Positions 21,530-64,000 of a DNA stretch of 64,000 nt are shown piece by piece. The notes beneath the pieces are model-generated. The model saw only the letters and a list, made by a program, of their open reading frames with translations. It searched no databases and was not told the DNA's origin. The stretch is from Arcuatula senhousia (taxonomy: Eukaryota; Mollusca; Bivalvia; Mytilida; Mytilidae). A program made the position numbers and the translations under genes. Position 1 is the first letter of the stretch. Every line of letters begins with the position of its first letter. The stretch spans positions 27,196,602 through 27,260,601 of the forward strand of contig OZ020313.1 of NCBI GenBank assembly GCA_963971305.1. Direction: 5' to 3'.

Positions 21530-21715
21530 TAGCCAGCACAATCAATCAATCCACTTCATTGGTCACAATGCAGCGGCTGGTGATTCAATTGTATGGTCTT
21601 CAATTGTATGTCATCGATGTTTTGTCCAAATTGACATATTCTGATGGAATCAAACCAGTCTTTGCATTCCATTGTACATTTGAGCGGGATAATAACCCTT
21701 GGAGTATGTACAAAA
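21530..21715 (-). other. Conserved block d, possible decayed exon (S3)
   Basis: The minus strand is open here for a KCTMECKDWFDSIRICQFGQ-like peptide, then NIDD. A small rearrangement relative to S2 follows (the CAATTGTATG motif is duplicated). Function unknown. Confidence 0.3.
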
Positions 21716-28149: not shown

Positions 28150-29032
28150 ATTCGTCATAAAAAATTCAAAAATTACTCTCATTTCACTATTTCATTATAC
28201 ACTACCTTGCCACACGAAAAACTAAAATGTCGCCTGAAAAAACTTCTCGAAAAAGCCTTTTCAAACTCTAGGAATTTTGTTGTTTTTGGGTTATAATTCT
28301 ACCTTCTTTTCCAAAACATCTTTCAAAGATAAAATTTGTTACACACTGGAACAAGTTTACAGTATGCTTGATTTCCTCATTGACAACATATTTGTCACCT
28401 TCGGAGGAGAGATTTTTCAACAACAAATCGGCATTCCAATGGGCACAAACTGTGCTCCTCTCCTCGCCGATTTGTTTTTATACTCTTACGAGACTGAATT
28501 TCTTCAGGGACTCGTAAAGAACAAGAAGATGAAAGAGGCAAGGTCATTTAATCTTACATTCAGATATATTGATGATGTCCTTTCTGTCAATAACACTTCA
28601 TTTGGTAGATGGATTCCTCCAATATATCCTCCGGAATTGGAGATTAAAGAGACCACCGAATCAAATTGCTTCACGTCTTTCTTGGATTTGCACCTCGAAT
28701 TTGACCCAGGTGGTCATCTCAGTACAAAAATTTACGATAAACGAGACGATTTTAATTTTCAAATAATTAATTTTCCTAATCTACAGAGCAATATACCTAC
28801 TTCTCCTGCATACGGTGTTTATATTTCACAACTTATTCGATATGCCAGAGCTTGCACACATTTCACAGATTTTTTTATCAGACACCGATTTCTTCGTGAC
28901 CGACTTTTGGAGCAGGGCTATAAGAAAATACGTCTCATACAATCACTAAAAAAATTCTTTCTTCGTTATCAGCCACTAGTAGAAAAGTTAAAAATTGAGT
29001 TAAAAGATATGGTAGTCAATTGTTTTAATTAG
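28150..29032 (+). pseudogene. Penelope-like reverse transcriptase, copy B (best preserved; one frameshift)
   Basis: The main open frame (28277-29032, 251 codons) contains the RT core: LDFLIDNIFV at residues 31-40, IGIPMGTNCAPLLADLF at 51-67, the catalytic YIDD at 97-100 (28565-28576), a DLHLEFDPGG block, and a C-terminal thumb-like region (PAYGVYISQLIRYARA, then SLKKFFLRYQPLVEKL). The N-terminal fingers (SLYTTLPHEKLKCRL, from about 28165) are open in the preceding frame and join through a 1-base shift near 28275, so the copy is slightly broken. The ORF stops shortly after the thumb. No GIY-YIG nuclease or other domain follows within the next kilobase. RNA-templated DNA synthesis is the family role. 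Assignment to the Penelope-like class rests on motif spacing, not on a phylogeny. Confidence 0.8.
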
Positions 29033-45266: not shown

Positions 45267-45621
45267 GTATAGGTAACTTAACAGGAATTAAGTATTGCGC
45301 AACCGGAAGTCAGACTGTGACAGAGCTTGAAGCTAGATATTAAAACTTTGCTGGACTGTGATTGGATTATAATATCAACACTGGAATATCAATGTATGTT
45401 TTCAAGTTTTTAAATGGATGTAGTTTAATAAAATAAGAATAAAATTTTCCACATGATGGATAATTTTTTTGGTGATTTTTCAAACAAGGATGACATTTCC
45501 ATTAACACCGGAGAAAATTGAATGTAAACATCCGCCAGCTGAACTCGGCATTCAACAGCTCTCTCAAAAGGCGGTCAACATATGATTTGACACAATTTAT
45601 TCAATGGGAAAAAGGTTACAC
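45267..45621 (+). repeat. 355-bp direct repeat, copy 1
   Basis: Nearly identical to 46605-46960; about ten differences were counted by eye. It contains TATTGCGCAACCGGAAGTCA (45291-45310), which joins a C/EBP-type TTGCGCAA palindrome to an ETS-type CCGGAAGT, followed by GTGATTGGATTA (45357), which includes an inverted CCAAT word. This looks like promoter sequence. No reading frame. Confidence 0.75.
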
Positions 45622-45624
45622 AAT

Positions 45625-46600
45625 ATAGATTTAATTTTATTTACATCAAACACTCTTCATGGAAAGGTTGAAAGACTGGAAATAGTTGTTTGAATATAAA
45701 GGGGTAGCAATTACCATCATGTTCCCTATAGCCAAAATTATGTTTCTGTGTTTTCTTAACTCAAGCTTTTTATATCCACTTGTTTTGGTCTTCTTTATTC
45801 ATATCAAGTCTAAATGAAGTCCAGAGTCACACTATCACTTAGTATTTCTGTTTTTGGGCTCAAATAAAACACATTTTGAAAAATACATTGATTTCAATGG
45901 AATTTTATGCCACAGTCACATTATTTGTCTTCTGTGTGTCTCTTCTTATCTAAATTACTTGCCGTACTTTCTGAATAAGTCATTTAGTAAAGCCCTACTC
46001 ACAAAAGCTGAACAAACCTTTCATTGATTTCATTATTTTTTTCAACAGCTATGGACTTAGCACCAGAATCAACATTTGCGCCATGAATGCATAAGAGGGA
46101 AGAAAAATTATGGATCAATGATAGGCTTCAACTATAGTTTATAAAGCATTCTTGCTCATACGCAGGTAAATTTCTATCAAATTCTGTATAACGTGTTGAA
46201 ATATTTATGTTCATTTTTCTTTATTTACATATTGCGACATGGCAGTTAAATATATTTTAGACGGCCAATTTTCTAGGTACACAATTTTCATTCCTTTTCT
46301 CTGTTTAGAATAAATCCCCATTCAACTGCTCAATGTGGAAAATAAGTAGCAATACTATGTATCTTTCCTACTAAAAAGATAAGAATAGAAAACATTGCTT
46401 AAAATTTTGCTTATTTAGACATTGTGTGTTGTTATATTTTGTATGATTTTCATCGTTGGCCGCAGCCGAACAGTAGACATTCTTAAATCACCACAGGAAG
46501 TTAAAAAAGAGGTACAAAGATTTGAAAACTTTTCGTTATTCTTAAAAACAGATTAAAGTACAAGAAAAAAGTGTTTCGCGAACAAATATCATGCAGGCCT
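45625..46600. other. Spacer between the two direct repeats
   Basis: About 980 bp of AT-rich DNA with no reading frame, PBS or polypurine tract, so the flanking repeats do not look like LTRs. Confidence 0.4.
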
Positions 46601-46604
46601 AACA

Positions 46605-46960
46605 GTATAGGTAACATAACAGGAATTAAGTATTGCGCAACCGGAAGTCAGACTGTGACAGAGCTTGAAGCTAGGTATTAAAACTTTGCTGGACTGTGAT
46701 TGGATTATAATATCAACACTGGAATATCAATGTATGTTTTCAAGTTTTTAAATGGATGTAGTTTAATAAAATAAGAATAAAATTTTCCACATGATGAATA
46801 ATTTTTTTTGGTGATTTTTCAAACAAGGATGAAATTTCCATTAACACCGGAGAAAATTGAATGTAAACATCCGCCAGCTGAACTCGGCATTCAACAGCTC
46901 TCTCAAAAGGCGGTCAACATATGATTTGACACCACTTATTCAATGGGAAAAAGGTTACAC
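46605..46960 (+). repeat. 356-bp direct repeat, copy 2
   Basis: Same promoter-like words as copy 1. Homology to copy 1 stops at 46960, one base before the TRIM LTR begins, so the TRIM insertion truncates this copy. Confidence 0.75.
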
Positions 46961-46961
46961 C

Positions 46962-47147
46962 TGTAACGGGGTTGCCCCCCTTCGTACATTAATTAGTAGA
47001 TTTAAATAGCCAGCCTTTATCCCTGAACAAGGGAAGTACTTCTTTGGTTCAGAGGTAGAGCGCCTGACTGTAAACCTAGAGGTCCCGGGATCGAATCCCG
47101 CTCAGGACATGTCGATTTTGTGAAGTAATTCATGCTCTCCGGTTACA
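46962..47147 (+). repeat. 5' LTR of the TRIM
   Basis: Starts TGTAACGGGGTTGCCCC and ends CTCCGGTTACA. The first 74 bp are repeated exactly at 47256-47329. A TTTAAATAG word at 47001-47009 could be a TATA-like element. The 3' half is tRNA-like. Confidence 0.85.
47045..47109 (+). ncRNA. tRNA-like sequence inside the LTR (Pol III A and B boxes)
   Basis: A box TGGTTCAGAGG (47045-47055) and B box GGATCGAATCC (47088-47098; one change from the usual GGTTCGAATCC) have normal tRNA spacing. The D stem (GTTC/GAGC) and T stem pair, the anticodon-loop region reads CTGTAAA, and the 3' acceptor strand TCAGGACA is tRNA-like. The 5' acceptor strand and the 3' half of the anticodon stem no longer pair. It is therefore a degenerate tRNA-derived sequence, not a working tRNA gene. 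It could still recruit TFIIIC. Confidence 0.75.
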
Positions 47148-47148
47148 T

Positions 47149-47159
47149 TGGCGCCCAAC
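47149..47159 (+). promoter_or_regulatory. Primer-binding site, tRNA-Lys type
   Basis: TGGCGCCCAAC starts two bases after the LTR's terminal CA. It is complementary to the last 11 bases (including CCA) of animal tRNA-Lys(CUU), whose 3' end is GTTGGGCGCCA. Pairing does not continue beyond 11 bases. Confidence 0.85.
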
Positions 47160-47242
47160 TAAAAAACCCACAATGGTTAGAACAGGAAAACTAGCCAGGG
47201 TTAGTTGTGTTAAGAGTCATACATGAAGGTATGATGACTCTT

Positions 47243-47255
47243 GAGGAGGGGGAAG
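47243..47255 (+). promoter_or_regulatory. Polypurine tract
   Basis: GAGGAGGGGGAAG lies immediately upstream of the 3' LTR, the standard plus-strand priming position. Confidence 0.85.
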
Positions 47256-47329
47256 TGTAACGGGGTTGCCCCCCTTCGTACATTAATTAGTAGATTTAAA
47301 TAGCCAGCCTTTATCCCTGAACAAGGGAA
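47256..47329 (+). repeat. 3' LTR of the TRIM, truncated
   Basis: Identical to the first 74 bp of the 5' LTR, then diverges abruptly at GGGAA/CCACATC. The tRNA-like part is missing from this end. Confidence 0.85.
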
Positions 47330-47776
47330 CCACATCATTCTGTATAAGTGACAGGTTATTTACGTCAAAAACGTAACTTTTTCTCTTTCGTTGTTGAATC
47401 ACAAAACTATTGTCACTTTCTATTTCTTGGTTGCGCATGGAATCTTGATAATAGAATGAAGGTTCATCCTTTCCTAAATCAATACATGAAATATCAGCTG
47501 AGTCGTTAAAAATTGCATGTTGTTTTGACTCATGCTTAGAAGAAGCCAATATATCCCCTTGTTCTAATTCTAAAAGAGATTCCTGAAAAACTGAGTTTTC
47601 GTCCTGCTCAGAATTTTCAAATGTTTTAAATGCTTCGTTAGATGATTTTTGAAACACTGAGTTTTCGTTCGGTTCGGAAGTGTCAAAACTTGCAAATTGT
47701 ATTGTCTGATTTCCTTCCGAATCCTGATATTCTGATAATTCTGATACATCACTCTCTGATAAGCTCATTTCACAAC
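47330..47776 (-). CDS. Possible internal exon encoding an acidic, serine-rich protein (unrecognised)
   Basis: On the minus strand a strong acceptor (ATTTTTTTTGTTAG, boundary at 47776) is followed by about 148 open codons up to the TRIM junction. The frame then continues 15 codons into the inverted LTR before a stop near 47283. The peptide is rich in Ser, Glu, Asp and Gln. It has an internal repeat (NENSVFQKS and DENSVFQES, each preceded by SE), two cysteines and a basic patch RKRK near the end, resembling a disordered, possibly nuclear, regulatory region. The acceptor, the long frame and the composition unlike its AT-rich surroundings favour a real exon. The truncating junction suggests the gene is broken here. 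No family is recognised. Confidence 0.45.
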
Positions 47777-47964
47777 CTAACAAAAAAAATTACTTATAAT
47801 AAAATAAGTATTAAAATCAACGTCAGTATGCTTTACTAATAGGTTAAAAACAAAGTTAATACTTTTTTATAAAACAACTGTCATAATGTTTGACATACTA
47901 ATTGATTGTCATACAAATGTACCACTTATATATAAACATTTCTCAAAGGAATTTTCCTTTAAAA

Positions 47965-48125
47965 ACCATAGTGGAAGCGAAATCAACCCACCGATGTATG
48001 AGACTACAAGGGAAACGAAACCATCCACGGATGTAGGAGACTGCAAGGGTAGCAAAATCAACCCACGGATGTATGATACTACAGTGGAAGCAAAAACAAC
48101 TCACAGATGTATGACTATGAGAGAC
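47965..48125. repeat. Minisatellite, about four units of 37-39 bp
   Basis: The unit GTGGAAGC(G/A)AAATCAACCC followed by A(C)GGATGTATGA.ACTACA recurs at about 47971, 48010, 48047 and 48084. The open frames on both strands across it are by-products of the repeat. Confidence 0.75.
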
Positions 48126-48140
48126 CACAGTGAAAAAGAA

Positions 48141-48346
48141 TTAACTATGGTGATACAATGGATCTTTGAGTCTAGGATTGGTTCTAATTTTCAACATGTC
48201 AACATTATTCAGATGGATTTTCATCAGATAATGCAGGTTTCCATAAAACAACCTTGCTTCAGCCTTCTTTAAACGTTCCATGGTGACACAGTCACAGATT
48301 CCTGCACAGACCACAACAAATAATTCATGCATGGATTTGCTCATTT
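48141..48346 (-). other. Possible minus-strand exon (unrecognised)
   Basis: A good acceptor (TCCATTTATAG, boundary 48346) is followed by 66 open codons to a stop at 48141: a MSKSMHELFVVVCAGICDCV start, then KKAEARLFYGNLHYLMKIHL. Composition is more protein-like than neighbouring frames. It lies 5' of the 47330-47776 exon on the same strand but ends in a stop, so joining the two would need a donor upstream of it. Confidence 0.25.
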
Positions 48347-48399
48347 CTATAAATGGACTTGATAGGCAGGGTAACACTCATAATAGGTTCGCCTACATG

Positions 48400-48640
48400 T
48401 CAAAAGTAATGTGGTCTAGATAAAATTGGTAAGAAGTACAGACAGACATGTATAGTCATTGATTGACTGAGTGCAGAATTCAGAAGACACTTAGATAGAT
48501 AGACATTATCGTAGAAGATAAGAGCAGATGGCAGTTTGTGATACACTTGAAAACATTTTTCTATGGTATTAGGTTCAACTTCTGGGATCTTAATTCCCTT
48601 CTTTGTCAGAATATACCTGTGAACTGAGCTGTAAACTTTG
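48400..48640 (-). other. Possible minus-strand exon (unrecognised)
   Basis: An open minus-strand frame. A donor-like CACAG/GTATAT (near 48617) and an acceptor-like TTCTGACAAAG (near 48605) fall inside it. Downstream it reads KGIKIPEVEPNTIEKCFQVY, then LPSALIFYDNVYLSKCLL, a plausible but unknown protein. It may belong with the two open blocks at 47330-48346. Confidence 0.2.
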
Positions 48641-48669
48641 CAAACAATTTTGATACAGAATCTCAATCA

Positions 48670-49215
48670 TCTCATATTAAGACATAATTTTTAAACTAAT
48701 GAAATCATGTTGCTATCACTCATCCTGAGTAATTCTAAACAATATATATTTCATATCTTTCTTTAAAGAAATATTTCAGAGATCATCTAAAAATTCTACT
48801 CAAACATTGACCCTTATGTCTCTAGAAGGAATTAGTTTGTTAAGTTTCTCTTACATTTTGAACAACTTATGCTCATGCATTAGCCTCTTTGGAAATTGTA
48901 GATTTATTAAGAAGTTAACTTAGAAGTTGTTGAGTTTTTTTTTTCATTGTCTTTATTCTTTTTATATATCTTCTATGATTATATTGTAGTAAATGTACCT
49001 CATGTTTGCATGTACATATGAATTGTATATCTTGTTTGCATATTTTTAAAAGTTAGTGTTTAGTTGAAGGCATTCCCAATTCTTCCCACATAATTCCTTG
49101 GGGGCACTCAGCTGTTTCACACCTGAGTTTTGGAGCATTTCGAAATTTACCACAGGTGTAATTTCTCCTTTCCCCCAAGTCATTACATTATAATTTCCTC
49201 TCCACTGTCAATATA
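48670..49215. other. Non-coding DNA, no recognised feature
   Basis: AT-rich with no supported feature. Confidence 0.35.
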
Positions 49216-49220
49216 ACCCA

Positions 49221-49362
49221 CTTATCATAGCCATCGGCTATAAGATGGAGCAGCGCTTCATCCCCCTTCATCATAGCCATCGGCTATTCATCGGAGCATC
49301 GCTCCTTTCCCTTTATCATAGCCATCGGCTATTCGATGGAGCAACGCTTCATCCCCCTTTAG
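49221..49362. repeat. Minisatellite, three units of about 45 bp
   Basis: TCATAGCCATCGGCTAT begins units at 49225, 49271 and 49316. Each is followed by a GATGGAGCA.CGCTTCATCC-like segment. The unit includes the short inverted repeat AGCCATCGGCT. Confidence 0.8.
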
Positions 49363-49369
49363 GATCCCC

Positions 49370-50390
49370 GGGTTGATATTGAGAGAGTGTCCGTGTCCAC
49401 GAGGCTTTAGCTAAGTGTCGTCGACAGGGGCCTGGAGCAAAATTCATTAGCTGAGGACTTGGCTTCCAAGGGCAAATTTTATAATTAGTTTATTTTGAAT
49501 AAATATTGATATATAATATTACTTTTGTTTTGTCAGCAGCAGACTCATGACTGATGAATTCATAGTGTATCAAATGGGCAACATAGACTTTGGAAAAGGG
49601 CATTGATATAACTTCTGGTATAAAACTAAGGTCTCAGTGCTCTGGAAGGGATAGTAGTTCCTGGTCTTTGATAGATAAGTCGGTGTTGGTTGTTTGTACA
49701 AGTATTATAATGAAGCCTATACATGGTGAAATATAGGCACTATAACTCATCCCATGACATTTTGCACTTGTATACGGAAGTGTAAGCATAAAGGATGAAA
49801 CTTACTATGCAGATACATGTATATATGAAACTTGGTATGCTAGTACATAATTTACTATAGTATTGCTCACACATAGACACATCAATTTCACACTAGCCTA
49901 TGGGATGAATTGAATAAATAGAAACTTATATAGTGTGATATAAGTGTTGTTTATTCAAGACATATCATAAACATGATAAATATATAAATACTATAATCCC
50001 TAGCATTATCTATAATCCCCCCTCAGGCTCACACACATTCCATCATTGCATGTAATACATGTAAACTTCTTATTTGGTAGTGGACAGTGTGGTTCTTTGT
50101 CTTCTCAAGTTACAAGCACTAGAAGGTTCATCAGTCTGAGTTTAGCTGCTGACTTGAAAAGTTTCTTTTTCAAAATTTTAGCAGTGCTGTTTTAAATTTT
50201 TGTACGGATTTTTGTGAAGTTTAGGTATCCAGTACAAATATGGTAACTCTTTATGTTCCTCTTTCATTGGAATATTGAAAGAGGACATAAAAGAGCTATG
50301 ATTGGCTATGATTTCATCATAAATAAATGTTTATAATGAAAAAAAAAATATTTTGTCGCGACCCGTTTGAAAAAAAATATTTTGTCCGCG
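49370..50390. other. Non-coding DNA, no recognised feature
   Basis: No supported gene. The 49845-49930 region repeats AAACTT.(C/G)TATGC words. The last ~60 bases have two AAAAAATATTTTGTC words just before the hammerhead unit. Confidence 0.35.
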
Positions 50391-50397
50391 CTCTGAA

Positions 50398-50770
50398 AAA
50401 TCGAAATCACTGGGCGATAACCGCTGCTGGTGGACCAGAGGTCCCCGAGGGTAATCACAAGCCTGGTAGTCAGACTTGTCTGACACGAATTACCATAAAA
50501 TTTTTAATATATTGTCGCTGAAATTTCCGATTGTTAAATTCAAAATTTATGAAAACACCAGGTTTCTTTCCTTGTAATGCACATGGTCGATATCCTCGGT
50601 GCTGGATTTGGCTTCCTTGTTCGAACGTTTTGGTTTTGAGTACTTTTCGTTTTCAACTGTTTTGGAATTTGACCTTCCAATGTTTTGGTTTAAATGCTAC
50701 TGATGAGAGGTTACTCCTTGAAATATCGATATATAGCATATCCAAATTAACCGTTTATACCCGCGTTTTG
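50398..50770 (+). repeat. Hammerhead-unit family 2, copy 2 (intact core)
   Basis: Homologous to 24657-25066. It has the shared block GCTGCTGGTGGACC with TCCCCGAGGG (50429-50453), GTCAGACTTGTCTGACACGA (an inverted repeat around CTTGT), GCACATGGTCG, and the ribozyme near its 3' end. Non-coding. Confidence 0.8.
50694..50739 (+). ncRNA. Hammerhead ribozyme, family 2, intact core
   Basis: Stem I is ATGCTA/TAGCAT (50694-50699, 50734-50739, six pairs). The CTGATGA box is at 50700-50706. Stem II is GAGG/CCTT with a five-base loop (50707-50719). The GAAA box is at 50720-50723. Stem III is ATAT/ATAT with a CG loop (50723-50732). The cleavage residue is A50733. All core positions are kept; A at the cleavage site is permitted but less usual than C. 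Activity is a prediction. Confidence 0.85.
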
Positions 50771-50774
50771 GTAT

Positions 50775-51525
50775 CTGTAATTCTGATCAAAACAAAAAAC
50801 CAAGTCCCCCCTTTTCAAGTTAAATGGTCCGTCCCTATAATGTATATTTCTTTTTGAAAAATAATAATCTCTATATCTCATTGCAGATTGTTGATAGTTT
50901 AGTTGTTTTATGTTTGACTTTGTGTGCGTTTGTTTCATATTCGTCATTTGTGTGAACGTGAATTTGAGACTAACGATATTTTAATGCTCCCTTGTCGAGT
51001 AAGTTGGTATTTTACGCCCTTGCAAGACTATATAGGTTGTACATAGACGATCCTTTGGAACTTCTTTGCTGTTTTTGGTATTTTTTTTATGATTTCCTAC
51101 TTCATAATTAGCTAATGTACTAAACTATATTCATAAAAGGTATGCAACTTTATTTTTATTTTTTAAATAAATGATATATAAGAATGTACCTTGGCATCTA
51201 GCCATGTCCTTTCTGAACTGCCGAGTAAGTAACATCAACCCCCATTATTTATCCATCCGATGGCACATGGCGGTGCTACCAATAGAAAATGATGAAATAA
51301 AAAAATAACATGTAGTACTACGAATAAAATCAAACGATTTTGACTCAGAACAGGATAAAACTAGTTTGCCCAACAATCTGCCTCTTAATAACCTGTCAAA
51401 CAAACACAAAAGACAGAAGACAAGGATACTAGAAAGAAGTAAGGCTTTAACAAACACTCGCACACTTTTGATATAATTTTATTTCAACTTCCTGAAATAT
51501 TACATTGTGAATTTTCTCCTGTTTT
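50775..51525. other. Non-coding DNA with a small dispersed repeat
   Basis: CAAGTCCCCCCTTTTCAAGT followed by TAAATGGTC.GTC (50802-50835) recurs as the reverse complement at 62835-62865. Otherwise nothing is recognised; frames here are not supported. Confidence 0.4.
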
Positions 51526-51529
51526 CACT

Positions 51530-51905
51530 CATGAAATTTTTCGGAAGACATCATGCACTTATAGACAAATATGGGATTTCGATCTCTCAGATGAGTGCAG
51601 ATGTTGGTTTGTCATAGGGTGTTGATTTGTCTTCCTTTACCGAATTTGACACGCTGAATGGACTATTGGCAACGCGACGGGTGTGCTATAGCAAACAGGA
51701 ACTGCTTACTCTTCCGGAGCACCTGAGTTCACTCTTGTTTCGACTGGAGTTCGCGTTGTTGATTGATATTCAGTTGTTTTGTGTTTCCATGTTTTACATG
51801 TTGTCTGTTTTTGTCCTGTTCTTGTTGGTGTTTGCTGGTTTTGTCTCTGCCCTTTCGGACTTTTGACATTCGGATACCCCATTGGTATCTCTGCTTCTTT
51901 CTTCT
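51530..51905 (+). mobile_element. Penelope-like element: last RT codons plus complete 3' tail
   Basis: Begins in the RT C-terminus (GRHHALIDKYGISISQMSAD, then VGLS and stop TAG at 51617-51619). It continues through the full tail: TTTACCGAATTTGACACGCT, AACGCGACGGGTGTGCTATA, CTTCCGGAGCACCTGAGTTC, TTCCATGTTTTACATGTTGT. It ends at CCCCATTGGTATCTCTGCTT plus TTCTT. This is the cleanest tail copy in the window and serves as the reference for the others. Confidence 0.8.
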
Positions 51906-51959
51906 TTCGGAATGTTTAAGATGATACATGTACATAAAACAAATGATGGTGAGGGAAGC

Positions 51960-52150
51960 AATTACTCACTCACAAGGCATTTGAATATCGAAAGTGTCAA
52001 GGGCAAACGAAATTCTTTGAAACAACAGATAACACACAAAACATATAACTCCGCAAATCACACATGTACCATAAAACAACAAGCTGCAATCAACAAGGCA
52101 AACTCGTATAGACACAATTGAGCACAGGTGCTTTGGAAGGGTGGACAGTC
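51960..52150 (-). mobile_element. Degenerate Penelope-like 3' fragment
   Basis: Minus-strand resemblance to the tail. In plus orientation AATCAACAAGGCAAACTCGT, then GAGCACAGGTGCTTTGGAAG, corresponding to GAGTGAACTCAGGTGCTCCG elsewhere. It lacks the terminus. Confidence 0.4.
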
Positions 52151-52159
52151 CATCTTAAG

Positions 52160-52915
52160 GAAGGCCAATCTTCATGTTTCAGAATTTCAGTGTGATTTCG
52201 GAACTTTTCTAGACTTTACCTTTATATATTGAAGATTTTTTTTGCACACTGACCCCTTCTTTTTATGTTATTTTCTGATTATATAGATCTTAACAACCAA
52301 CTGTATAAGATTTCTTAAAATTCTTAATACAACTTCAAGGCTCCTAAGGCTAAAACGTCCGAATGTTAACGTAATGTAAATTCTAGATGAATCTGATTCC
52401 CGCCAAATTTTTGACGTCATTTATCTCGAAAATTGGCACACGGACCTATCATTTTCTTATTGGTATTTGATCGAGGAAACAATCGTCTATCGTTTCCACC
52501 ACAAATAATAAAATATTCGATATAAAAAAGTTAAGCAGTGACCTTCCTTAATTGCAACACATCTGTCAAGTAAACAAGAACCAGCATGGTGATAATTATG
52601 TAAAATTCTAAAACGAACCTACTTCAGATATGTGTTAATTTGGGATATATTTTCCTGCATTTGTATACTCGACTACTCAACATGATCCTGTGTAAGTGTG
52701 GAAAACCTTGATATATACCAAAGCCTTATGTACAAATGTAATCTCTATAAGCTTGGGCAAGTTATGTAATTAAACAAGAAGGATGCCAGAACGTAAATTT
52801 GTCAATAAGCATTCTAAAATTTTCTACATGTAAATATGAAGCCAACTTGCTATATGAAATGAAAAATCAATGAGAAGATGACTGGTTAGCAAAATGATAT
52901 AATCATTATAATTAA
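52160..52915. other. Non-coding DNA including dispersed repeat copy (52385-52475)
   Basis: The segment 52385-52475 is the reverse complement of 10000-10075 (CCCGCCAAATTTTTGACGTC and GCACACGGACCTAT). The remainder shows nothing recognisable. Confidence 0.45.
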
Positions 52916-52920
52916 TTTCA

Positions 52921-53197
52921 GGGGGTACAGAACACCTATGGGAAATAACTCTTAAATATCACTTGAACGTTTTAGTTAGGCACAATTATTCAAAGAAATC
53001 AAGCTTCTTGATGATCAAAATATAAAATGTTGAAACTCCATTACATGTATGTTCACTGAAAAAATTCCTAAGAAACTTATGGTTCGATTTTCTTAAGATT
53101 TAAGAATTGATTTATATGACTAAAGTACATATTTTTGCAAATTTTCATGAAAATTAAACGACACAATTTTATTTTAGCCAAAGTGTTGGGTACCCCC
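52921..53197. mobile_element. 277-bp MITE with TTAA duplication (copy 2, inverted)
   Basis: Reverse orientation of 2144-2414. It starts GGGGGTACAGAACACC and ends GGGTACCCCC. TTAA is intact on the right (53198-53201) and mutated to TTCA on the left (52917-52920). Confidence 0.8.
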
Positions 53198-53382
53198 TTA
53201 AGGTAAAAAACATAGTAAAATTAAAAAATATATTAATCTACAAAACTAGAAACTTATAAGCGGAGTTTTTAAAACAGGAAGAAAATACTTCACCAAAAGT
53301 AAACATCGCTAACAGCATAAAATCCATAACTTTCCGGATAGAATGGATGTTTATTATATGAATGAGTCTTACCTACAGTCAG

Positions 53383-54235
53383 ACAGACGTAATAATTAGT
53401 CTTAGATTTTTTTTCAAATTTTTGGTTGTTTTGGCAGGGATTTTGGTGACAGGCATCATTTTCCGGAAATATAAAATTCATTCAAGAGATAAAAACAAAA
53501 AGTTACTCAATACACAATGAAATTGTAAATGGTGGGTTTTTTAATTTTGTAAAATAAAGGTAATGACAAAACCTGAAAAAATCACAATTTCAAAGAAGAA
53601 GATCCAACGATGAAATTATGAAGACACACTGAAGATGCTGAAGATCACAATGGTCCTGAATCGGTAAAGGCATTTTAAATGAGACTGTTATGTTGGATTA
53701 TGATGCAATCTAAGGATCCGGTAGTGACTAAAACACTTATTCCACATCTCATTATTTTCTATGCTTGAAGGTCACAAAAGGTATAGAAGCGTGATCATAT
53801 CAGCATATTGGAAAACCATAATCTAATTTAAACACGGACCAATTATACCCTGTGAAATATTTCTTTTTTTCCCAACATTAAACGGGACATACAAGGAAAA
53901 TAAGATAAAACGTCTTTTAAAAAAGTAACTGTGTATTCAATTCTTACCAAGCTCTACGTGTTTATATACGCAAACAGGTTTTCGGATGAAGCCGTCGAAG
54001 TTCCAATACTCCCAAGAAGCTCACGCATTAGAGTTTCTTCGTTATAGTTGATAGCAGTACAGCTACAACGGTAAAAACATTGGAGGCCACACATCTTTAA
54101 TCCAATCTTATCATATATTGCCAATACTACAGAAGTGATGTCAGAATGAGAAAAATCTCCAATTTGAATTTTTCCATCAATTAAGTGGATGTTTACATAA
54201 AACCAAACTAACAAGATCATCCATGAAATACCCAT
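53383..54235 (-). pseudogene. Broken secreted protein gene with PAN-like and EGF-like parts (two exons)
   Basis: Exon 1 (54235-53948, minus strand) starts with an ATG and a signal peptide (MGISWMILLVWFYVNIHL), then a PAN/apple-like segment (KMCGLQCFYRCSCTAINYNE). It ends at the donor G/GTAAGAAT. Exon 2 (53462-53383) encodes ENDACHQNPCQNN, the start of an EGF-like module, continues to NYYVC and ends at G/GTAAGACT. Three lesions are visible: a one-base shift putting a TAG just before the exon-1 donor, an acceptor AG changed to GG (TATATTTCCGG), and likely loss of EGF and PAN cysteines. Phases at the exon junction agree (G + AA), supporting a former gene. Later exons were not found. Confidence 0.55.
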
Positions 54236-54239
54236 TGTT

Positions 54240-55145
54240 TGCGTACAAAAAAATAAATTGAAGTGTGGATCTTATTTTTAAAAGACGTATTTCATTCCAC
54301 ATTAACAATTTGGTTTTTATGCACTCTAATGATGCAGCTATCACCTTTATTTTTTGTATATGGGTATAAGTATTTGAATTAGAAAATGTAACGGTATTGA
54401 ATTATAATTAGCTACATATATATAGAATGTATGAACAGAATATCATTAATCTTTGTTGCAATAATGTGCATCCTTCAATTCCCCCATTCAAAAGCTTTGT
54501 ATCAATACACTCTAAGTTTATTTACGCAACCTTCCCATCGGCTAATTCTGTATATGGGTATAAATATTAAAATGATGTAACAAAATGGTCTGTTACAAAT
54601 TATCTTAATTAAAATGTTTAAACGATATAATTATTCTTAATTGCAACAATGTGCATTCTATGATCCGACCTGTATGTTATATAAAATAATTTAGATAGTT
54701 TTCAGAAAATGGTAAGTGAATCCTGTGATGTCAATTTTTATACCATTGTGAAAATTCATGAAGCTTTTGATTGCACCTCGTTTCTATAAATTTAATATCT
54801 CCTTTATCCCGATAATATTGATTAAACTATATGGTACGTTTAATACTTATAGAATTGCAATTTCTGTATCTCTCTTCGTCTCCCCACATCTCCTTGCGCG
54901 CGTCTAGTTTATATAGAAAAAGGAGAAGTGTAATATTTTTTATATATATAATTTTCGCATATTAAATGCCTTCCGAAGACAACAAAGCGCATCTCATATA
55001 TCAAGATATCAATAAGCGCTCAAGACGTCCTATGCATTTTTCTACAAAACTTTATAAGTGTGTAGCCCATCAAACCAGAATTGCACATACATTGTATCCA
55101 TATTTCCCGAACTATGCAAGACAACTCATATTTCATATTTCAAGT
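54240..55145. other. Non-coding DNA, no recognised feature
   Basis: AT-rich sequence that would be upstream of the broken PAN/EGF gene. No promoter motif stands out. Confidence 0.35.
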
Positions 55146-55149
55146 ACCT

Positions 55150-55290
55150 GTTGTGTGTTTCGTGTTTTGAACTTCCAAACTACTGGTATTTCCTTTCAAC
55201 AATCATTTTAATTTATCGCTGCAGATGAGAGGTTAATGTCGTAATGCCCACAATTTTACAGCTTACACGTAATAACCAAATTAACTCTGT
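55150..55290 (+). repeat. Hammerhead-unit family 2, relic
   Basis: Retains the order GTGTTTTGAACTTCCAA, GCTGCAGATGAGAGGTTA, CAGCTTACA, CCAAATTAACT seen around the family-2 ribozymes. CTGATGA has become CAGATGA and stem II and GAAA are lost. Confidence 0.5.
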
Positions 55291-55294
55291 TTAT

Positions 55295-57250
55295 TGATGC
55301 CCAATTTGAGACTGATATTTAACTATTTTCCTGTATACATATTGTTTTTTAAAATACAATTTTTTGGAAATATGATACCTAATGACAAACATTTATATTA
55401 TCTTTTCATGAATGATATAACATTTTATTTGAAAAAAAAATTACGTCATTAGACACTGTGTTCATATTTCAAAGAACATAGATTTTTACCATTTTAGTTT
55501 GAGGAAGTTTTCCCATCTATCTCAAAGTAAATAAAAATAGATTTTTATTCTGGTTTTTTTCTCAAATGCCCGACCACCTTTTTCACCCTTTTAGTCCGTT
55601 CTAACGTTATGCTTTATTGAACACCTATCAACCGATCCTTTTAGTAGCCTTAGTTTTTCGTCCTTTTTTACTATCTTTGGATATTTTTTTTTATTTTGGT
55701 TAGAAATATAATTATTTGATAACAGTTATAATGGACTTTTGATTTGTTCAACCTTCCAACGTGTATAACTGCCAAAACGTGACTTGGCTTAACATGTAAA
55801 AGATCCACTTTAAATTACTTGTTGGTATTACGTGTAAATCTGCAGCTTTTATTTCTGGTTAAATTATTTTTGATTTAATATATAATCAATAACAGTTTGT
55901 CATCTTCACAGATTCATTGCACTCCAAAGAATATTGTCCTTTTCAGTTAAGAAATTAATTCCGGGAATGTACGACTCGACTGACATTTTTCGAACACATA
56001 CATGTAATTAATGTCTCAACTGGTTACTCAATCATGGTGCACTTTATCTTACTTGCCTATAATTTATCAAGCTTTACTGTAATTTATTAAAGTATTATGT
56101 AAAAACGCAATGAATAGAACATTTTTGAAAATATATCATGGTATAGTACAGTGGAGTTTTATAAATCAATGGAAAAAGGCTTATAAAATTTTGGCTTGTA
56201 GAATATTTGAACTATTTTTCATGTTATGACTAAGCATGCGAACTCGTGCGAAAAAAAAATCAGAATTGTTTCATGATTAATAAAAATATTTTAATAGATT
56301 TTTATAGTAAAAATTGAACAGAGATTTAAAGAAATCCACGGGAGTATAACATAGTGACCAGGAAGAGCATTTGCTTGATAATCCTTTCAAAGTCTTTTTT
56401 AATCTCCTATTGTTGATCCTTTAAATTATGTTCAGGTAGACCTATACCTGGCTGTTCCGTCAGATTATTTAACACTTTTTTTAAATAAATAAATTGTTTA
56501 CAATTAGGTTGCATTTGTATATGGAAAACTTTTTTGTTTGATAAGAAAAATAAGATAAAATCCTGTTTCTTGTTTTCAGAGTACGTATTAAAAAAATACT
56601 TCTCTTTCTAAAATGAAATTCTATCTAGAGACAAAAAAAATAGATTTTATTTTATTTCTAGAACTCAAATGGACTGTAGCAAAAATTAAGAAAGAGACAT
56701 AACTATATCATGTATGTCAAAAATATCAAAGGTCCTACAAATGTTTAATACAAAAGCGTTTAGTTTATTTATGCTGTATATGCATATGTATATGCATATG
56801 TGCAAGGCGTAACGTCTCACCACAGCATTAAAACAAAAACAAAACAGAAACAAAAACAAACAATTAACCGGTCGAAAATCAGAAGTATCGAAAAAAATCA
56901 TCCATAACACAAAAGGTCGAAAATTTATGCCAATCCCGCATAGATGAAATCAATCATGTGCAGTGTAAGAAACCTGGTGGGTTATTTACGATTTATTACT
57001 GAGACAAATGTTTGATTTATGAAGTTATTTCAGGACATTTGTGTGATACTCACCATGAAGTTTTGGTTTATCAATTCATTAGATAGTTTTTATATATTTA
57101 CATTAAATACATTTAAGTAGTTATTGTAAATTTGATTTTACATGTAATAAATTTATATTTTTGAAAAAAAATCCATCCCGAAGGAAAAAACTGACACAAA
57201 GATCCTAACGGGATTTAAAACAATTTTCTGCAGTCAAGATACAATAACAA
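55295..57250. other. Non-coding DNA, no recognised feature
   Basis: AT-rich. A TATGCATATG palindromic microsatellite lies at 56776-56800. Frames on either strand are not supported. Confidence 0.35.
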
Positions 57251-57254
57251 AAGT

Positions 57255-57460
57255 GGTATAAATAATGGTTTATTTTGTTATGCTGGATATCGATATTTCA
57301 AGAATTAACTTCTCATCAGCAGCATTTGAAGTTCAAAAACCATAAATAATAAATGAAAAGTACTCTAAGCTAAATAGCCAAATCCAACTCCAAGGATATC
57401 GAACATGTGCAGTACAAGGAAAGAAGTCTTGCGTTTTAAACAATTTAGAATTCAACAATT
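57255..57460 (-). repeat. Hammerhead-unit family 2, partial copy
   Basis: Minus-strand copy containing the 3' half of the unit: CTTGTACTGCACATGTTCGA, TATCCTTGGAGTTGGATTTG, GAGTACTTTTCATT, then the ribozyme and the post-cleavage tail. Confidence 0.7.
57280..57325 (-). ncRNA. Hammerhead ribozyme, family 2, core intact, stem II weak
   Basis: Minus strand: stem I ATGCTG/CAGCAT (57325-57320, 57285-57280), CTGATGA (57319-57313), GAAA (57299-57296), stem III ATAT-CG-ATAT and cleavage residue C57286, the canonical base. Stem II (GAAG/TCTT) has one A-C mismatch and two wobbles, so activity may be poor. Confidence 0.8.
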
Positions 57461-57589
57461 TAAGAATCGGAATATCAATAGGATTGTACAGAAAATAACC
57501 AAACCCTGAAATGTTGATTTTCTTCTGTTTCTGTATTACTTGATACGAAATGAAAATTACAAGAAAGTAAAAGGTAATAAATTTTGTAA

Positions 57590-57640
57590 CACTTGTCTTC
57601 AAGACTCATAAGAGGCGCTTTACTTGGAATATTAATAATG
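57590..57640 (-). repeat. Hammerhead-unit family 1, relic
   Basis: The minus strand reads AAAGCGCCTCTTATGAGTCT, the stem I strand and a mutated CTGATGA box (CTTATGA). The GAAA/cleavage part is gone. Confidence 0.55.
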
Positions 57641-57989
57641 CCAAAGACAAACACAAAACTAGTAACCTAAATTATGGCTTAGATTAACATATGCATGTAG
57701 TTGGATGAACAATTGTGAAATTTCATAGCCCTCATGCACATATATATACCATTGCGACCTTCAATCCACTACTGAGTCTTTGTGCCACAAATGTCAGCTT
57801 ATAAGCTTTCGTACACTGTGGATCGTGGAATATAATCTGTCGACTCCGTGAAAAAATTAATTATCAACATTCAAGAACTGGTACTTCTTTCGGAACACAT
57901 GATTTTTTTTAATAGAGTCTAACTGTGCTGCCGATTGTAATTTGGCTGTTAATTGTGCTTTAAATGTTTTTTGTTTCTTTGTATTGTTT

Positions 57990-58290
57990 CTTTTGTATCG
58001 ACTAAATTTGTACATGGCGTTGTCTTCCTTTACCGGATTTGACACGCTGAATGGACTATTAGCAACGCGAAGGGTGTGCTATAGCAAGCAGGAACTGTTT
58101 ACTCTTCCGGAGCACATGAGTTCACTCTTGTTTCGACTGGAGTTCGTTTGTTGATTGATGTTCAGTATTTTGTGTTTCCATGTTTTACATGTTGTCTGTT
58201 TTTGTCCTGTTCTTGTTAGTGTTTAGTTTTGTCTCTGCCCTTTCAGACTTTTGACATTCGGATACCCCATTGGTACCTCTGCTTCTATGA
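57990..58290 (+). mobile_element. Penelope-like element 3' terminal fragment
   Basis: Tail copy from about 58016 (GGCGTTGTCTTCCTTTACCG) through CTTCCGGAGCACATGAGTTC to the terminus CCCCATTGGTACCTCTGCTT at 58264-58283. Very similar to 51620-51905 and therefore young. No RT codons retained. Confidence 0.75.
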
Positions 58291-58294
58291 TTTG

Positions 58295-59140
58295 ACGTCT
58301 GACATTGAGATAACCATAATACTACTTTGCCTTTTTGGCCATTGATGGACAATGACATTGATTTGCTTTCTGCAATCCAAATACATTTTTCATTGGTTTA
58401 ATAAAGCTTACCTGTCTGATACTCGAACGAGTCATTACGAATATTTTGTATTCAGGACTCTATTTGAGAAGTGCAAAAACATTACCTAATATTCAAAGTT
58501 ACATTAGATAGAAGAAGCGTATGATTAAACAAAATCTTATTAATTCCTTTTCTGTATGCACAGATTGTTGTTGATTTAATCAGAGTATGTCAATTGTACA
58601 ATCAAATCTTTTATTATGGATCTACTTGATGATACAAACAATAACTTGCATAAATACCACGGCCATTGCAGAGCATACTAATATTTTCGCTGGTTATTTG
58701 ACAGATATACTTTGACAAGTTAATTTGCTCGATTTAAGTTTCTTATTAATGGCTGTAAATGAATGACATACATTACCTGAACTTTACAACTGTCTGTTTT
58801 AAACTCGTATACCTAACTAGTGGACTGCAATGTGTTCTGTAGTAGTCAAAAGGGTTACACCTTTTATAAAAAAAAATACAGATAAAAAAATCTTGGTAAT
58901 ATGCACAATTTTATGTAGTGTACTTCTTGCAAACCAAGTTTCATTTATTTCTGTTCAGTAGTTTTAGAGGATTTGCGTCCACAAAATATGATTACAGACG
59001 GGTGGGATGGGCTGACGCTCGAGTCAGTTAAAAACAACATTGCATTGTAGGTTATAAAACCGTGATTAACCAAGTTTGTTTAATTAACATTAGCTGTCGA
59101 CTATGGAAATTTTAAATTGGCATGCGACAGTCACAAAACC
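58295..59140. other. Non-coding DNA, no recognised feature
   Basis: No supportable gene. 58935-59030 resembles a widespread noncoding repeat (CCAAGTTTCATTTATTTCTG, then CAGACGGGTGGGATGG). Confidence 0.35.
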
Positions 59141-59146
59141 CCATAA

Positions 59147-59552
59147 ACTGAGCTTATCGACCGTAAACTGTAGTTAGCGGTCGATAAACTGGGTTTATCA
59201 CTCGCTAACTATAGTTAGCTGATGCTAATGATAATTTATGTTGTTTGAAATTTATCTTTAGCGGTCGATAATAGGGTTATCAAATGCTAATTAAGGTTTC
59301 TCGGTGATAACCCGAATTTATCGGTGATAAACTGAATTTATCGGTGATAAACTGATTTTATCAACCGCAAACAATAGTTTACGGTCGTTAAATGCTGTTT
59401 TGCAATGATAAAGTAGCATTTACACCGCGCAAACCAAAGTTACCACTGATAAACTTGGTTTCACAAACGCAAACTATAGGTAGCGTGCGATAAACCCAGT
59501 TTATCAACAGCAAACTATAGCTTGTGGTCGATAAATGTGGTTTATCAGGTTT
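59147..59552. repeat. Palindromic GATAA/TTATC cluster
   Basis: About 19 GATAA or TTATC words occur in 400 bp, many as paired palindromes (GATAAACTGGGTTTATC, GATAAACTGAATTTATC, GATAAACCCAGTTTATC). They alternate with a second motif (GCTAACTATAGTTAGC, GCAAACTATAG) and GGTCG/CGGTC links. Either a locally expanded hairpin-rich repeat or a dense array of GATA-factor-like sites upstream of the exon at 59645. Confidence 0.75.
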
Positions 59553-59644
59553 TTGTTATTATTGCGTGCCATACCTCAGCATTGCTAAAAAGAGTAATAA
59601 GTTAGAAGTTAGTAAGTTATTGTTGTAGCCTAAGAGAGCTCGAA

Positions 59645-59994
59645 ATGAGTCAGTTTAATCTGGTAGATGAATATAAAATAATGACAAAGTGGAGGAAACG
59701 GACCAATCGAATACAAGAGTTTTTACTGCCACGGGAAAAAGGAAGGATTAGTGGGAACGGTTTATTTAGCCACATGCATGGGAATCCAATGGGTAAAACT
59801 CTTATCAAAACTTCAAGTAGGATTACGTGGGAGGGACATGACGTTTGTAGGAACACAGTGCATCACAATGGATTGCTTTCAGGTTTTCTCCGTCACGTTA
59901 TAGCTAAATGGAGTATACTAGACACAATTGATTCATCTTTAATTATAAAAAAGCAATCATCGGATCGTTGGTATGCGATTTCTGACGATACAAA
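59645..59994 (+). CDS. Possible first coding exon (unrecognised protein)
   Basis: An ATG (context CGAAATGAG) opens 116 codons and ends at a consensus donor (ACAAA/GTGAGTAAG, boundary 59994). The peptide has a basic N-terminal half (KWRKRTNRIQEFLLPREKGR), mixed polar composition and few low-complexity residues, unlike the AT-rich junk frames around it. No domain is recognised and no next exon was found in the following 4 kb. The GATAA cluster ends about 90 bp upstream. A lineage-specific gene or a transposon-encoded exon are both possible. Confidence 0.4.
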
Positions 59995-59999
59995 GTGAG

Positions 60000-60465
60000 T
60001 AAGGGTTGAATAAAAAAGTACAAAATTATTGACCCCTTACCAATCAAATTCTTAAAGTAATAGATAATTATTGGGTGCGCATGTTACTGTAAATTTGTGT
60101 TTACCGTTTGGTGAGTTGGAGGTACTAGTATATGCCTAAGTGCATCGATTATGGTACCACGGCGCTGAGATGGAATATAGTGGATAAATGAAACTGATGA
60201 TGATGATAATAATAATGATCTGTTTTTTAGCATACATGACAAACAGTAAAGATGGAAAAACACGGTTCTGTGATACTAGCCTTTTAGTAAAACACCGAAG
60301 TATTACAAGAGAAATAGAATTTTGTTTGAATATGCTTTTTTAATTACGTAATATTCGGAATTCAATCGCTCGCTGTTTTTGGTGCATTTTTTTCAAAAGG
60401 TATTCTAATTATTTCATAATAATATTGATTCATTTACAGATAAAGCATCAATCTACGATTTTGTC
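60000..60465. other. Non-coding DNA with short trinucleotide run
   Basis: A GATGATGATGATAATAATAA microsatellite lies at 60198-60220. No gene features. Confidence 0.4.
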
Positions 60466-60469
60466 GACC

Positions 60470-60885
60470 CATTGAATCTGGATTATTGCAAACATTAAGA
60501 CAGTAAAATCAAAGCGCTAAAGCTTAAACATTTGTTATGAAATCCGTAATTAGGCTCCACCCACTTGAATATATATGATATATTGATTAAATTAAAGGTT
60601 AATGGTCAACAATGCTTAAGAGTACATCAACTTTAGTGTATCAATATGTGAAATGTATTGCATATTTATATCGTATTTATTAAAGGGGTATAAAGATGTA
60701 CCTCTTAGTTAAGACAACCTGTATAACATTTAAAACATTGAAACAATAATTATACACCATGAATATTCTATAACAGATCCTTTGGTAGGAATATTGCCTG
60801 ACCGATTTAACCTGTCTAGACGAAAAACAAACGCGAAAAGCAGATAGCTATATGACTACATAGAGCTCTGCTCAAAAACAAAATG
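60470..60885 (-). repeat. Dispersed repeat R4, copy 2
   Basis: Reverse complement of 38810-39265. Landmarks in plus orientation: TGTTATGAAATCCGTAATTA, GGTCAACAATGCTTAAGAGT, TTAGTTAAGACAACCTGTAT, TTGGTAGGAATATTGC, CCTGTCTAGACGAAAA and ATGACTACATAG. Confidence 0.6.
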
Positions 60886-60889
60886 AATG

Positions 60890-61265
60890 CCATGAGCTAG
60901 CTCACAAAGGGATCCCCCTTCTTGGTGATAAAACCATAACTCCAACTATGACCATTGAAGGATATTTAAGATCAATGAATATTCGTCATATACATCTCAT
61001 TTTGATGCAACTGCTTCATGCATAAAGTTTCATCAAATTGCCTCTACCTGCTACAAGAAAGATGGGCTTATTTATGAAGATTTATGAACAGACATACAAA
61101 CAACACACAACACTTTTAAACTCTGGTTTAAAAGAACGATCAAGTTGGGTATTTATTCCTTATTTTACATTCAAATGTCGAATAAGTAATCATTTCCTTA
61201 TTTAAATTTTGAATGTCGAATAAGTAACTGTTTACTTCATGTAATTCATCGTTTGAATGTCGAAA
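60890..61265. other. Non-coding DNA with a short local repeat
   Basis: GAATGTCGAATAAGTAA-like words occur at 61174-61190, 61209-61226 and 61255-61270. No gene is supported. Confidence 0.4.
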
Positions 61266-61271
61266 AAGGAA

Positions 61272-61772
61272 TAAGGAAAGAAGCAAAGAGGCACCAATGG
61301 GGCATTTAAGTGTCAAGTGCAAAAAGGGCAATGACGAAACCGACAAACACGAATAAAACAGCACGAAGAAACACAAGACACAAATTCAAACGAAAGGTTA
61401 TCAACAACGCGAACTCAAGTCGTGACAAGAGTGAACTCAGGTGCGACGGAAGAGTAAGCGGTTCCTGTCTGCTATAGCACACCCGTCGTCGTGTTGTTAA
61501 TTTGCAATTCAGATTGTCAAATCTGGTAAAGGAAGACAAAACAAATTTCTACGACAAAGCAACATCTGCATTTATTTGAGAGATATATATCTCATATTTG
61601 TCTACGAGTGCAAGGTATTTACCGTAAAATTTCTGGAGTGAAGAAAGCAACCGTGCACCATAACACCGTGTCAGCAATTTCAGTGTCAAACGTGACGCTC
61701 ATCTGCCAAGGAAATCGATGTAATTCCCGCCAGCTCTGGAGTAACAAATCAACTGTGATACGAATAAGTAAC
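61272..61772 (-). mobile_element. Penelope-like element: RT C-terminal relic plus 3' tail
   Basis: On the minus strand a broken RT C-terminus (61772-61560) precedes the tail: CTTCCTTTACCAGATTTGAC, AGCAGACAGGAACCGCTTAC, CTTCCGTCGCACCTGAGTTC. It ends at GCCCCATTGGTGCCTCTTTG near 61280. Small frames here are tail sequence. Confidence 0.7.
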
Positions 61773-61799
61773 AAACTTCACCGTTCTTGGTTTAAACTG

Positions 61800-62595
61800 G
61801 TTATAATTTATTATATTTATCAATAAGATCAACCAATAATGTTTTATTAGAGATTATCGGACAAGAGCCGTATCGTGAGTAATGTTGACATAATGCCGTT
61901 TACCTGTTACGTTCTAATGTCAAATTAGTCGGGCATTAATTCGTGTTATCTCCCTTTTAATTATAATACCTTATATGGCTAAACTGTGAATACTGCTCAC
62001 GAAAAGATTTTTTTTCAAACTTGAATCAATGTATCTTAGAAGGAAGAAAAAAGGGGGAGGGCCCAAGCAAATATTTTGTTTTCGGTTTATACTTTTAGTA
62101 ATTTCGGAGTTTTCCCAGAACATTGGACTTTTTAAACTTTTCGATCAAAACTTTATAATCCGTTAACATCTCCGACCCCATCTGTTAAATAGTGTGTGGG
62201 GTAATGATGTGCAGTACAAATACAAATCATATTGTCCGCCCTCGAAGATTCATCATTTTATTACCTACAAGTAAAAATATTATCAAAGTAATTTTTCGTC
62301 GATCGGCTTTTTGTAAAGCATCCAATCCGAATTCCGTCGATGTATTGTATCCCTATTTTACACGTTCAAATAAAAATTCAAATCATAATTTTATGTCAAA
62401 AATTTTAATCAGGAACATTTAAAATATATTTTAAGTTTCTGCTGTGGCAGATCCAGAGACAGGATGTTCCAAGGGGGTGGGGGGGGGTCGAAACACATCA
62501 TATCCTTTGAAAATTTTGTAATATTTTCGTGCAGATTTTAGGCAAAAATGACCCGGAACCCTAGTTAGTAGACAATAGATGGACCCCCTTTCAAA
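61800..62595. other. Non-coding DNA
   Basis: Includes a G-rich run (GGGGGTGGGGGGGGGTC, about 62474-62490). No supported gene. Confidence 0.35.
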
Positions 62596-62599
62596 ATTC

Positions 62600-62740
62600 A
62601 TGTACCAAGTCAGGACCATTGCAATCTTCAATTTCTATGGTATTTTTACCTTGCTTCGTCTTTTCTCTAGGACAATGAGATTGATCCTCCAAGCTCGGTA
62701 ATTTTGCTATTACCTTTTTTCATCTATCAAAGATTCATTA
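62600..62740 (+). repeat. Copy of the 3' region of RT copy B
   Basis: TGTACCAAGTCAGGACCATT (62601) to AAGCTCGGTAATTTTGCTAT (62692-62711) matches 29198-29308. It is evidence that the copy-B subfamily also leaves 5'-truncated pieces. Confidence 0.55.
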
Positions 62741-62967
62741 AATGCGATTTTTCCAAAAGATTGACAATACCATCATCAAAATCAATGCGACCCCAATACA
62801 AATATAAGCCGCACTTGGACTATTGAAAAAAAAACGACCGACCACTTAACTTGAAAAGGGGGGGGGCTTGGTTTTTTCCCCAAAGATATTTTGGAAATTA
62901 TTTTTGATAGAAAAATATTTTGGCAGCAGAGGGTAACAAATAAGAAAAAAATATTCTGAAGAAGGAT

Positions 62968-63009
62968 TGCCTCTGATGAGTCTTGAATAGACGAAACGCG
63001 CGTCAGGCG
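62968..63009 (+). ncRNA. Hammerhead ribozyme, family 1, intact core (upstream)
   Basis: CTGATGA 62973-62979; stem II GTCT/AGAC with TGAAT loop 62980-62992; GAAA 62993-62996; minimal stem III (A-U, C-G) closing GCGC; cleavage site GTC ending at 63004. Stem I is GCCT/AGGC plus a wobble, slightly shorter than the downstream copy. Confidence 0.85.
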
Positions 63010-63324
63010 TAGCAAAATTTATTGTCTGGAACTTTGTTGTCATTTGTATTTCGAACATACGTGAAGGTTAGCACTGCTGGTGGAGTTTAAATTCCCCGAG
63101 GTTAGCCCGCTCCGGCACCAACACTTTTGAGTTGGAGAATACATCAAAGCTTTAAATTATCCGTCTAAATTTCAAAATTGTCTGAACCCTAAGGTTCTTC
63201 CTACCCCAGACATAGGTTGAATATCTTAGTAATAATTTGGTTCCCCTGTTTGGTATTTTTGGTTATACTGTTCTATGCTCTTCATATTCATACAGTGTTT
63301 GGCATTTTCAATATTTTTGGTAGA

Positions 63325-63368
63325 GCGCCTCTGATGAGTCTTGAATAGACGAAACGCGCGTCAGGCGT
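63325..63368 (+). ncRNA. Hammerhead ribozyme, family 1, intact core (downstream)
   Basis: Stem I GCGCCT (63325-63330) pairs with AGGCGT (63363-63368). CTGATGA is at 63331-63337, stem II GTCT/AGAC with TGAAT loop at 63338-63350, GAAA at 63351-63354, tiny stem III at 63354-63361, cleavage after C63362. All core nucleotides match the hammerhead consensus. Type I hammerheads with very short stem III are described from Penelope-like elements and related animal repeats. Confidence 0.9.
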
Positions 63369-63489
63369 AGCAAAATTTATTGTCTGGAACTTTGTTGTCA
63401 TTTGTATTTCAGCTACATAAGATAATGCAAATAATGAAAAAAATCTGTCGCGATGCCTTCAATTTTTTTTTTAATTCTTTGAAGTTAAA

Positions 63490-63800
63490 TGGCCTGTACC
63501 TTATGTCTGGGGTAGTAAGAACCTTAGCATTTTGACAATTTTGAAATTTAAACGGAGAATTTCATTGCCTTAATGTGTTTGTTTTAAAACAATCTAAGTA
63601 TTGATGCCGGAGAGATTGAAAATACCAAACATGCACTAGATACGAACACAAAAAGCAAAGATTTTAAAAGCAATATATGTCGAGCAAGAACCCAGTTTTG
63701 ACACAAGATCGACCAATAACATCAGATAATTTTGAATTTTAACGGATAATTGTAATTTCATTGCTTTGGTGTGTACGTCATCAGGGTATTTTGACACTCA
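63490..63800 (-). repeat. Hammerhead-unit family 1, relics
   Basis: The plus strand shows the mirrored landmarks TATGTCTGGGGTAGTAAGAA, CCTTAGCATTTTGACAATTT and TTTAAACGGAGAATTTCATT, with part repeated near 63732-63765. No ribozyme remains. Confidence 0.55.
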
Positions 63801-64000
63801 AAGAAATTTTAACTTTCTTTTAGAAAGAAATCTAAGTTTATTTTTAATGAATACTTCAAATATGCATTTACATGGTCAGCTTCAGCTAATTAATGACCGC
63901 TAAAGATTTGATAATTTTAATTTGTGTTCATAATAAATGATCACCAACTGAAAAATGAGGGGTCGATTTTAAATAATAAGTATGAACTTCCAGTATGGTT

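Follow-up and report, generated by a model that had tools for sequence, protein, structure and literature searches.

Our analysis of a 64-kb stretch of DNA, referred to here as the window, revealed a short, non-coding LTR retroelement that we identify, with a probability of roughly 85%, as an inserted Helenus-type TRIM with a truncated 3' end. This identification is based on sequence features, namely the anatomy of the element, a pair of A and B boxes that exceeds chance at the stringency applied, a match to the tRNA model, a primer-binding site (PBS) situated one base past the LTR and a left insertion edge, as well as on the agreement with published Helenus features that is considered below. 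A TRIM whose LTR carries a Pol III-type promoter of tRNA origin, as proposed in the first-pass annotation of this DNA, appears to be the best reading of that anatomy, and in this respect the idea was sound, but the accompanying suggestion that such elements were undescribed in animals does not hold since this kind of element has already been published as Helenus (Kojima 2024, PMC10886601).

The remnant is composed of segments of 186, 108 and 74 bp (Table 1), the second LTR being incomplete, and the full length of this element would have been 480 bp (186 + 108 + 186). The LTR is of the TG...CA type and its termini, TGTAAC and GTTACA, are mirror images of each other. All 74 bases of the 3' LTR fragment are identical to the 5' LTR (74/74), with an E value of 6.4e-34 for the LTR-to-LTR BLAST match in a search within the 64-kb window. 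Comparison of the PBS with tRNA 3' ends gave a shared run of 11 bases for tRNA-Lys(CTT) and of 8 bases for tRNA-Lys(TTT). The LTR, interior, polypurine tract and start of a second LTR annotated in the first pass were all recovered at the positions in Table 1, as was the 11-base match to tRNA-Lys(CTT), whereas the spacer between LTR and PBS, annotated as two bases, measures one. The element thus has the paired LTRs (the second incomplete), the short non-coding interior and the total length below 1000 bp of a TRIM, with a PBS and a polypurine tract at the ends of its interior. No open reading frame of at least 80 aa lies inside the element according to the ORF list, and a single 166-aa minus-strand frame merely overlaps the 3' LTR fragment. 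The interior is predicted to fold into a structure more stable than expected from its composition (z -4.19, with 0 of 200 shuffles as stable), and the 3' half of the interior contains a long hairpin upstream of the purine tract; a role for this hairpin in packaging or dimerisation is only a guess.

Table 1. Positions in the window of the element, its parts and its left-hand flanking repeats.
Feature	Positions	Strand	Description
Repeat copy A	45267..45621	+	Without the element; empty-site-like paralogue of the left flank
Flanking repeat copy B	46605..46960	+	98% identical to 45267-45621; ends one base before the LTR
5' LTR	46962..47147	+	186 bp, ends TGTAAC...GTTACA
Imperfect palindrome	47025..47050		10/13 arm positions match; centre 47037/47038
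A box TGGTTCAGAGG	47045..47055	+	0 mismatches to TRGYNNARNGG
tRNA-like stretch	47045..47101	+	Rfam RF00005, 18.7 bits; model positions 8-63 of 71
B box GGATCGAATCC	47088..47098	+	1 mismatch to GGTTCGANTCC
T4 run	47116..47119	+	Possible Pol III terminator (putative); after the tRNA-like part
Interior	47148..47255	+	108 bp, between 5' LTR and 3' LTR fragment
Primer-binding site TGGCGCCCAAC	47149..47159	+	tRNA-Lys(CTT) type, by comparison with the tRNA 3' end
Polypurine tract	47243..47255	+	Read from the sequence, directly before the second LTR
3' LTR fragment	47256..47329	+	First 74 bp only, equal to the 5' LTR

The LTR also contains a tRNA-like part. The consensus words for the two boxes are TRGYNNARNGG (A box) and GGTTCGANTCC (B box), and the element's boxes, which the initial annotation had placed at tRNA spacing, are indeed spaced as in tRNAs, with 43 bases from the start of one to the start of the other. 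The consensus was scanned only after the boxes had already been pointed out, at a stringency of no mismatch in the A box and at most one in the B box, and at this setting the pair in the element is the sole one in the window on either strand. Chance matches to such a pair are rare: there were none on either strand of 20 random 64-kb sequences generated by a first-order Markov model, and one in 20,000 shuffled LTRs, of which one strand was scanned. Relaxing the scan of the window gave two pairs at one mismatch per box and four at one and two mismatches. One box-like pair with a mismatch in each box is located on the minus strand at 21706/21656, and Rfam returned no match there (21656-21706, minus strand) at E values up to 1.

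The score of the element against the Rfam tRNA model (RF00005), 18.7 bits, is below the gathering score of 29, and its E value of 0.35 over 4227 families becomes about 8e-5 for the tRNA family on its own. Apart from this, only a Y RNA-like model matched at E ≤ 1, on an overlapping stretch (17.2 bits versus a cut-off of 69), and ARAGORN detected no tRNA anywhere in the window. A good T arm is present, in keeping with the first-pass description, but the 3' acceptor strand described with it is not borne out as none of the seven acceptor stem positions pairs (0/7). In addition, the fold of the tRNA-like stretch does not stand out from those of shuffled versions (z -0.85), 40 of 200 of which were as stable. 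Because of the sub-cut-off Rfam score, the ARAGORN miss, the unpaired acceptor stem and the shuffle-like fold, this part is, judged from its sequence, a degenerate, promoter-like relic of a tRNA and not a tRNA gene. The combination of tRNA-like sequence with A and B boxes in the LTR that is characteristic of Helenus is present, though with an Rfam score below the cut-off. It occurs once in the element, as the 3' LTR fragment ends before the corresponding position.

It is likely that Pol III really transcribes intact copies of this element. By analogy to tRNA genes, transcription driven by the internal boxes would begin some 10-20 bases upstream of the A box, at about 47025-47035, and the LTR bases up to the start site would act as U3. 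Pol III would pass the T4 run of the 5' LTR without stopping there, and the resulting genomic RNA would terminate within R of the 3' LTR. That T4 run is the only run of at least four T on the plus strand of the element, and exactly one such run was found in 7933 of 20,000 shuffles, so that having just one is unremarkable at this base composition. Copying would be primed by tRNA-Lys, and both copying and insertion would depend on enzymes supplied by an autonomous element, probably a Gypsy, as Kojima proposes for animal Helenus (PMC10886601).

The strongest competitor to this proposal differs from it on mechanism: a TRIM of the same anatomy may be transcribed by Pol II, leaving the boxes as a functionless relic. 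The degenerate tRNA part, the unpaired acceptor stem and the variant boxes would all suit such an element, and Kojima calls the Pol III promoter function of Helenus unproven (PMC10886601). Nevertheless, the box pair and its spacing have been kept where the acceptor stem has been lost, as expected if only a promoter was retained, although this is the pattern of one sequence, and we regard transcription by Pol II as unlikely, while giving it more weight than any of the other alternatives.

A different origin for the boxes would be a SINE or tRNA pseudogene that inserted, after integration, into one LTR of an ordinary TRIM, in which case the LTR of the family would be without the tRNA-like part. 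The break in the 3' LTR gives this explanation some purchase, as it corresponds to LTR base 47035 (the sequence past 47329 diverges from the 5' LTR), and the sequence shared by the LTRs hence stops three bases before 47038, where the tRNA-like part, itself seen only once, would begin. However, the 5' LTR does not stop at the tRNA-like part but extends to GTTACA, the mirror image of TGTAAC, one base from the PBS, and this terminus is also missing from the second LTR, which must have been truncated whichever explanation applies. Visual inspection showed neither a target duplication nor an A-rich tail flanking the tRNA-like part, and we hold a later SINE insertion to be highly improbable. That a short direct repeat and promoter-like words came together by chance, a reading to which the availability of a single copy leaves some room, is scarcely credible given the 74/74 identical bases, the box pair found in 0 of 20 random 64-kb sequences and the correctly placed PBS. 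The points that do count against the Helenus identity are the tRNA-like part being seen in a single LTR, the Rfam score below cut-off, nearly equalled by the Y RNA-like model, the ARAGORN miss, the shuffle-like fold, the variant boxes, the absence of an observed target duplication or second copy, the ordinary T4 run and the scanning of the box consensus after the fact.

Several observations bear on how the Helenus-type element lost its 3' end. The centre of the imperfect palindrome lies two bases from the position equivalent to the break in the 3' LTR, and centres scoring at least 10 are found at 40 of 63,960 positions in the window. The break also coincides with one end of the range predicted for Pol III initiation. 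Each of these coincidences, break with palindrome and break with start range, is a single one that was noticed after the fact. Our preferred account is that the 3' loss may be a hairpin-driven deletion favoured by the palindrome, and an aborted strand transfer is possible. A more elaborate version, in which Pol III signals divide up the LTR, the start just upstream of the A box and the T4 run beyond the tRNA-like part delimiting an R region of about 85-95 bases, and in which the break at the predicted U3/R border could mark a failed strand transfer and not a random deletion, seems improbable to us. If true, the element would have to ignore its terminator within the 5' LTR but respect the one within the 3' LTR, which would resemble the handling of the poly(A) site by retroviruses. 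Whatever the cause, this copy is probably dead or immobile since its 3' LTR is without R and U5, and its RNA should lack the second R for first-strand transfer.

The breakage of the 3' LTR also means that no target duplication can be read, which in animal Helenus is 4 bp (PMC10886601); the flanking words, GTTACACC on the left and CCACATCA on the right, where the end is truncated, do not match each other. On the left side there is a direct repeat of about 356 bp, whose two copies are 98% identical and 1338 bp apart, start to start. Homology between copies A and B ends one base short of the LTR, and the element is absent from copy A, which supports position 46962 as a true insertion edge, although the repeat on the left may simply end there and mark no such edge. 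We considered whether the sequence downstream of copy A resumes after the break, and the answer was read as no: the best local match between 45622-45720 and 47330-47450 was 17 bases, with a score reached by 91 of 500 shuffles, and the best BLAST match between 45622-46604 and 47330-64000 was 21 bases (E 0.014). The 166-aa minus-strand frame (47283-47783) begins to the right of the break and continues into the LTR fragment. Pfam, on three of the six frames, gave no family at cut-off for it, the sole match right of the break being PF22696 (13.3 bits versus a cut-off of 27, E 0.091), and the portion of the frame outside the LTR had no homolog at E ≤ 0.001 among 23 candidates.

BLAST identified no second copy of the element within the 64-kb window. 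The initial 17 bases of the LTR, searched as an exact word, matched 14 stretches in prokaryotic contigs and two in viral contigs, collections that are uninformative on copy number in the host. These 16 loci were rejected as copies because 17-21 bases of the element matched by BLAST in each and their number does not exceed chance, our own estimate being about 30 chance matches to a 17-mer in 257 billion bases. No match to the LTR-PBS junction was found in viral contigs. Other features were noted elsewhere in the window. A 264-aa open frame at 28238-29032 (plus strand) has a weak match to RVT_1 (E 0.012, below the Pfam cut-off) and looks Penelope-like. Two type I hammerhead ribozyme matches, at 62967-63010 (31.2 bits) and 63325-63368 (36.5 bits), score below and above the cut-off of 34, respectively, are 358 bp apart and overlap an identical 84-bp repeat (62969-63052 and 63327-63410). 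This pair and its repeat resemble the animal retrozymes of PMC7229834.

The element has counterparts of varying closeness among known systems. It shares with Cassandra a Pol III promoter within the LTR of a TRIM, although Cassandra is a plant element whose promoter is derived from 5S rRNA, whereas that proposed here is derived from a tRNA. The biv-TRIM of Satovic et al. (2019, PMC6934838), with repeats of 202-218 bp and an interior of 77-80 bp in the available part of that report, is likewise a bivalve TRIM of similar size, but the same part reports no unambiguous PBS and does not mention a tRNA-like LTR. The conserved interior word given there for biv-TRIM is absent from our element, where the best matches have 5 of 14 mismatches on the plus strand and 6 on the minus strand. 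SINE2 elements, which are tRNA-derived SINEs, have A and B boxes at the same tRNA spacing, but here the boxes are in an LTR accompanied by a PBS and a polypurine tract, and no SINE tail or target duplication is evident by eye.

The closest resemblance is to Helenus, the name given by Kojima (2024, PMC10886601) to TRIMs with tRNA-like LTRs, which together with Cassandra and Ajax constitute TRIMp3. Helenus has been reported from fungi, plants and six animal phyla, including 51 families in five orders of bivalves, with Mytilidae named among the hosts and tRNA-Lys among the primers, and ranges in length from 311 to 1263 bp (PMC10886601). That paper was the only one found in our literature search on tRNA-like LTR TRIMs with Mytilus. 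The tRNA-like LTR, the PBS matching the 3' end of tRNA-Lys, the polypurine tract, the size within range and the Mytilidae host all correspond, and this is the second ground for our identification. The differences lie in the truncated 3' LTR, with the tRNA-like part seen in one LTR, and in the boxes: most Helenus families have TRGCY and YGG in the A box and GGTTC in the B box (PMC10886601), in place of which this element has TGGTT, AGG and GGATC, respectively. The element represents not a new class but one more, damaged, example of LTR elements taking over a tRNA promoter, and it offers a concrete LTR in which the proposed use of Pol III by Helenus could be assayed.
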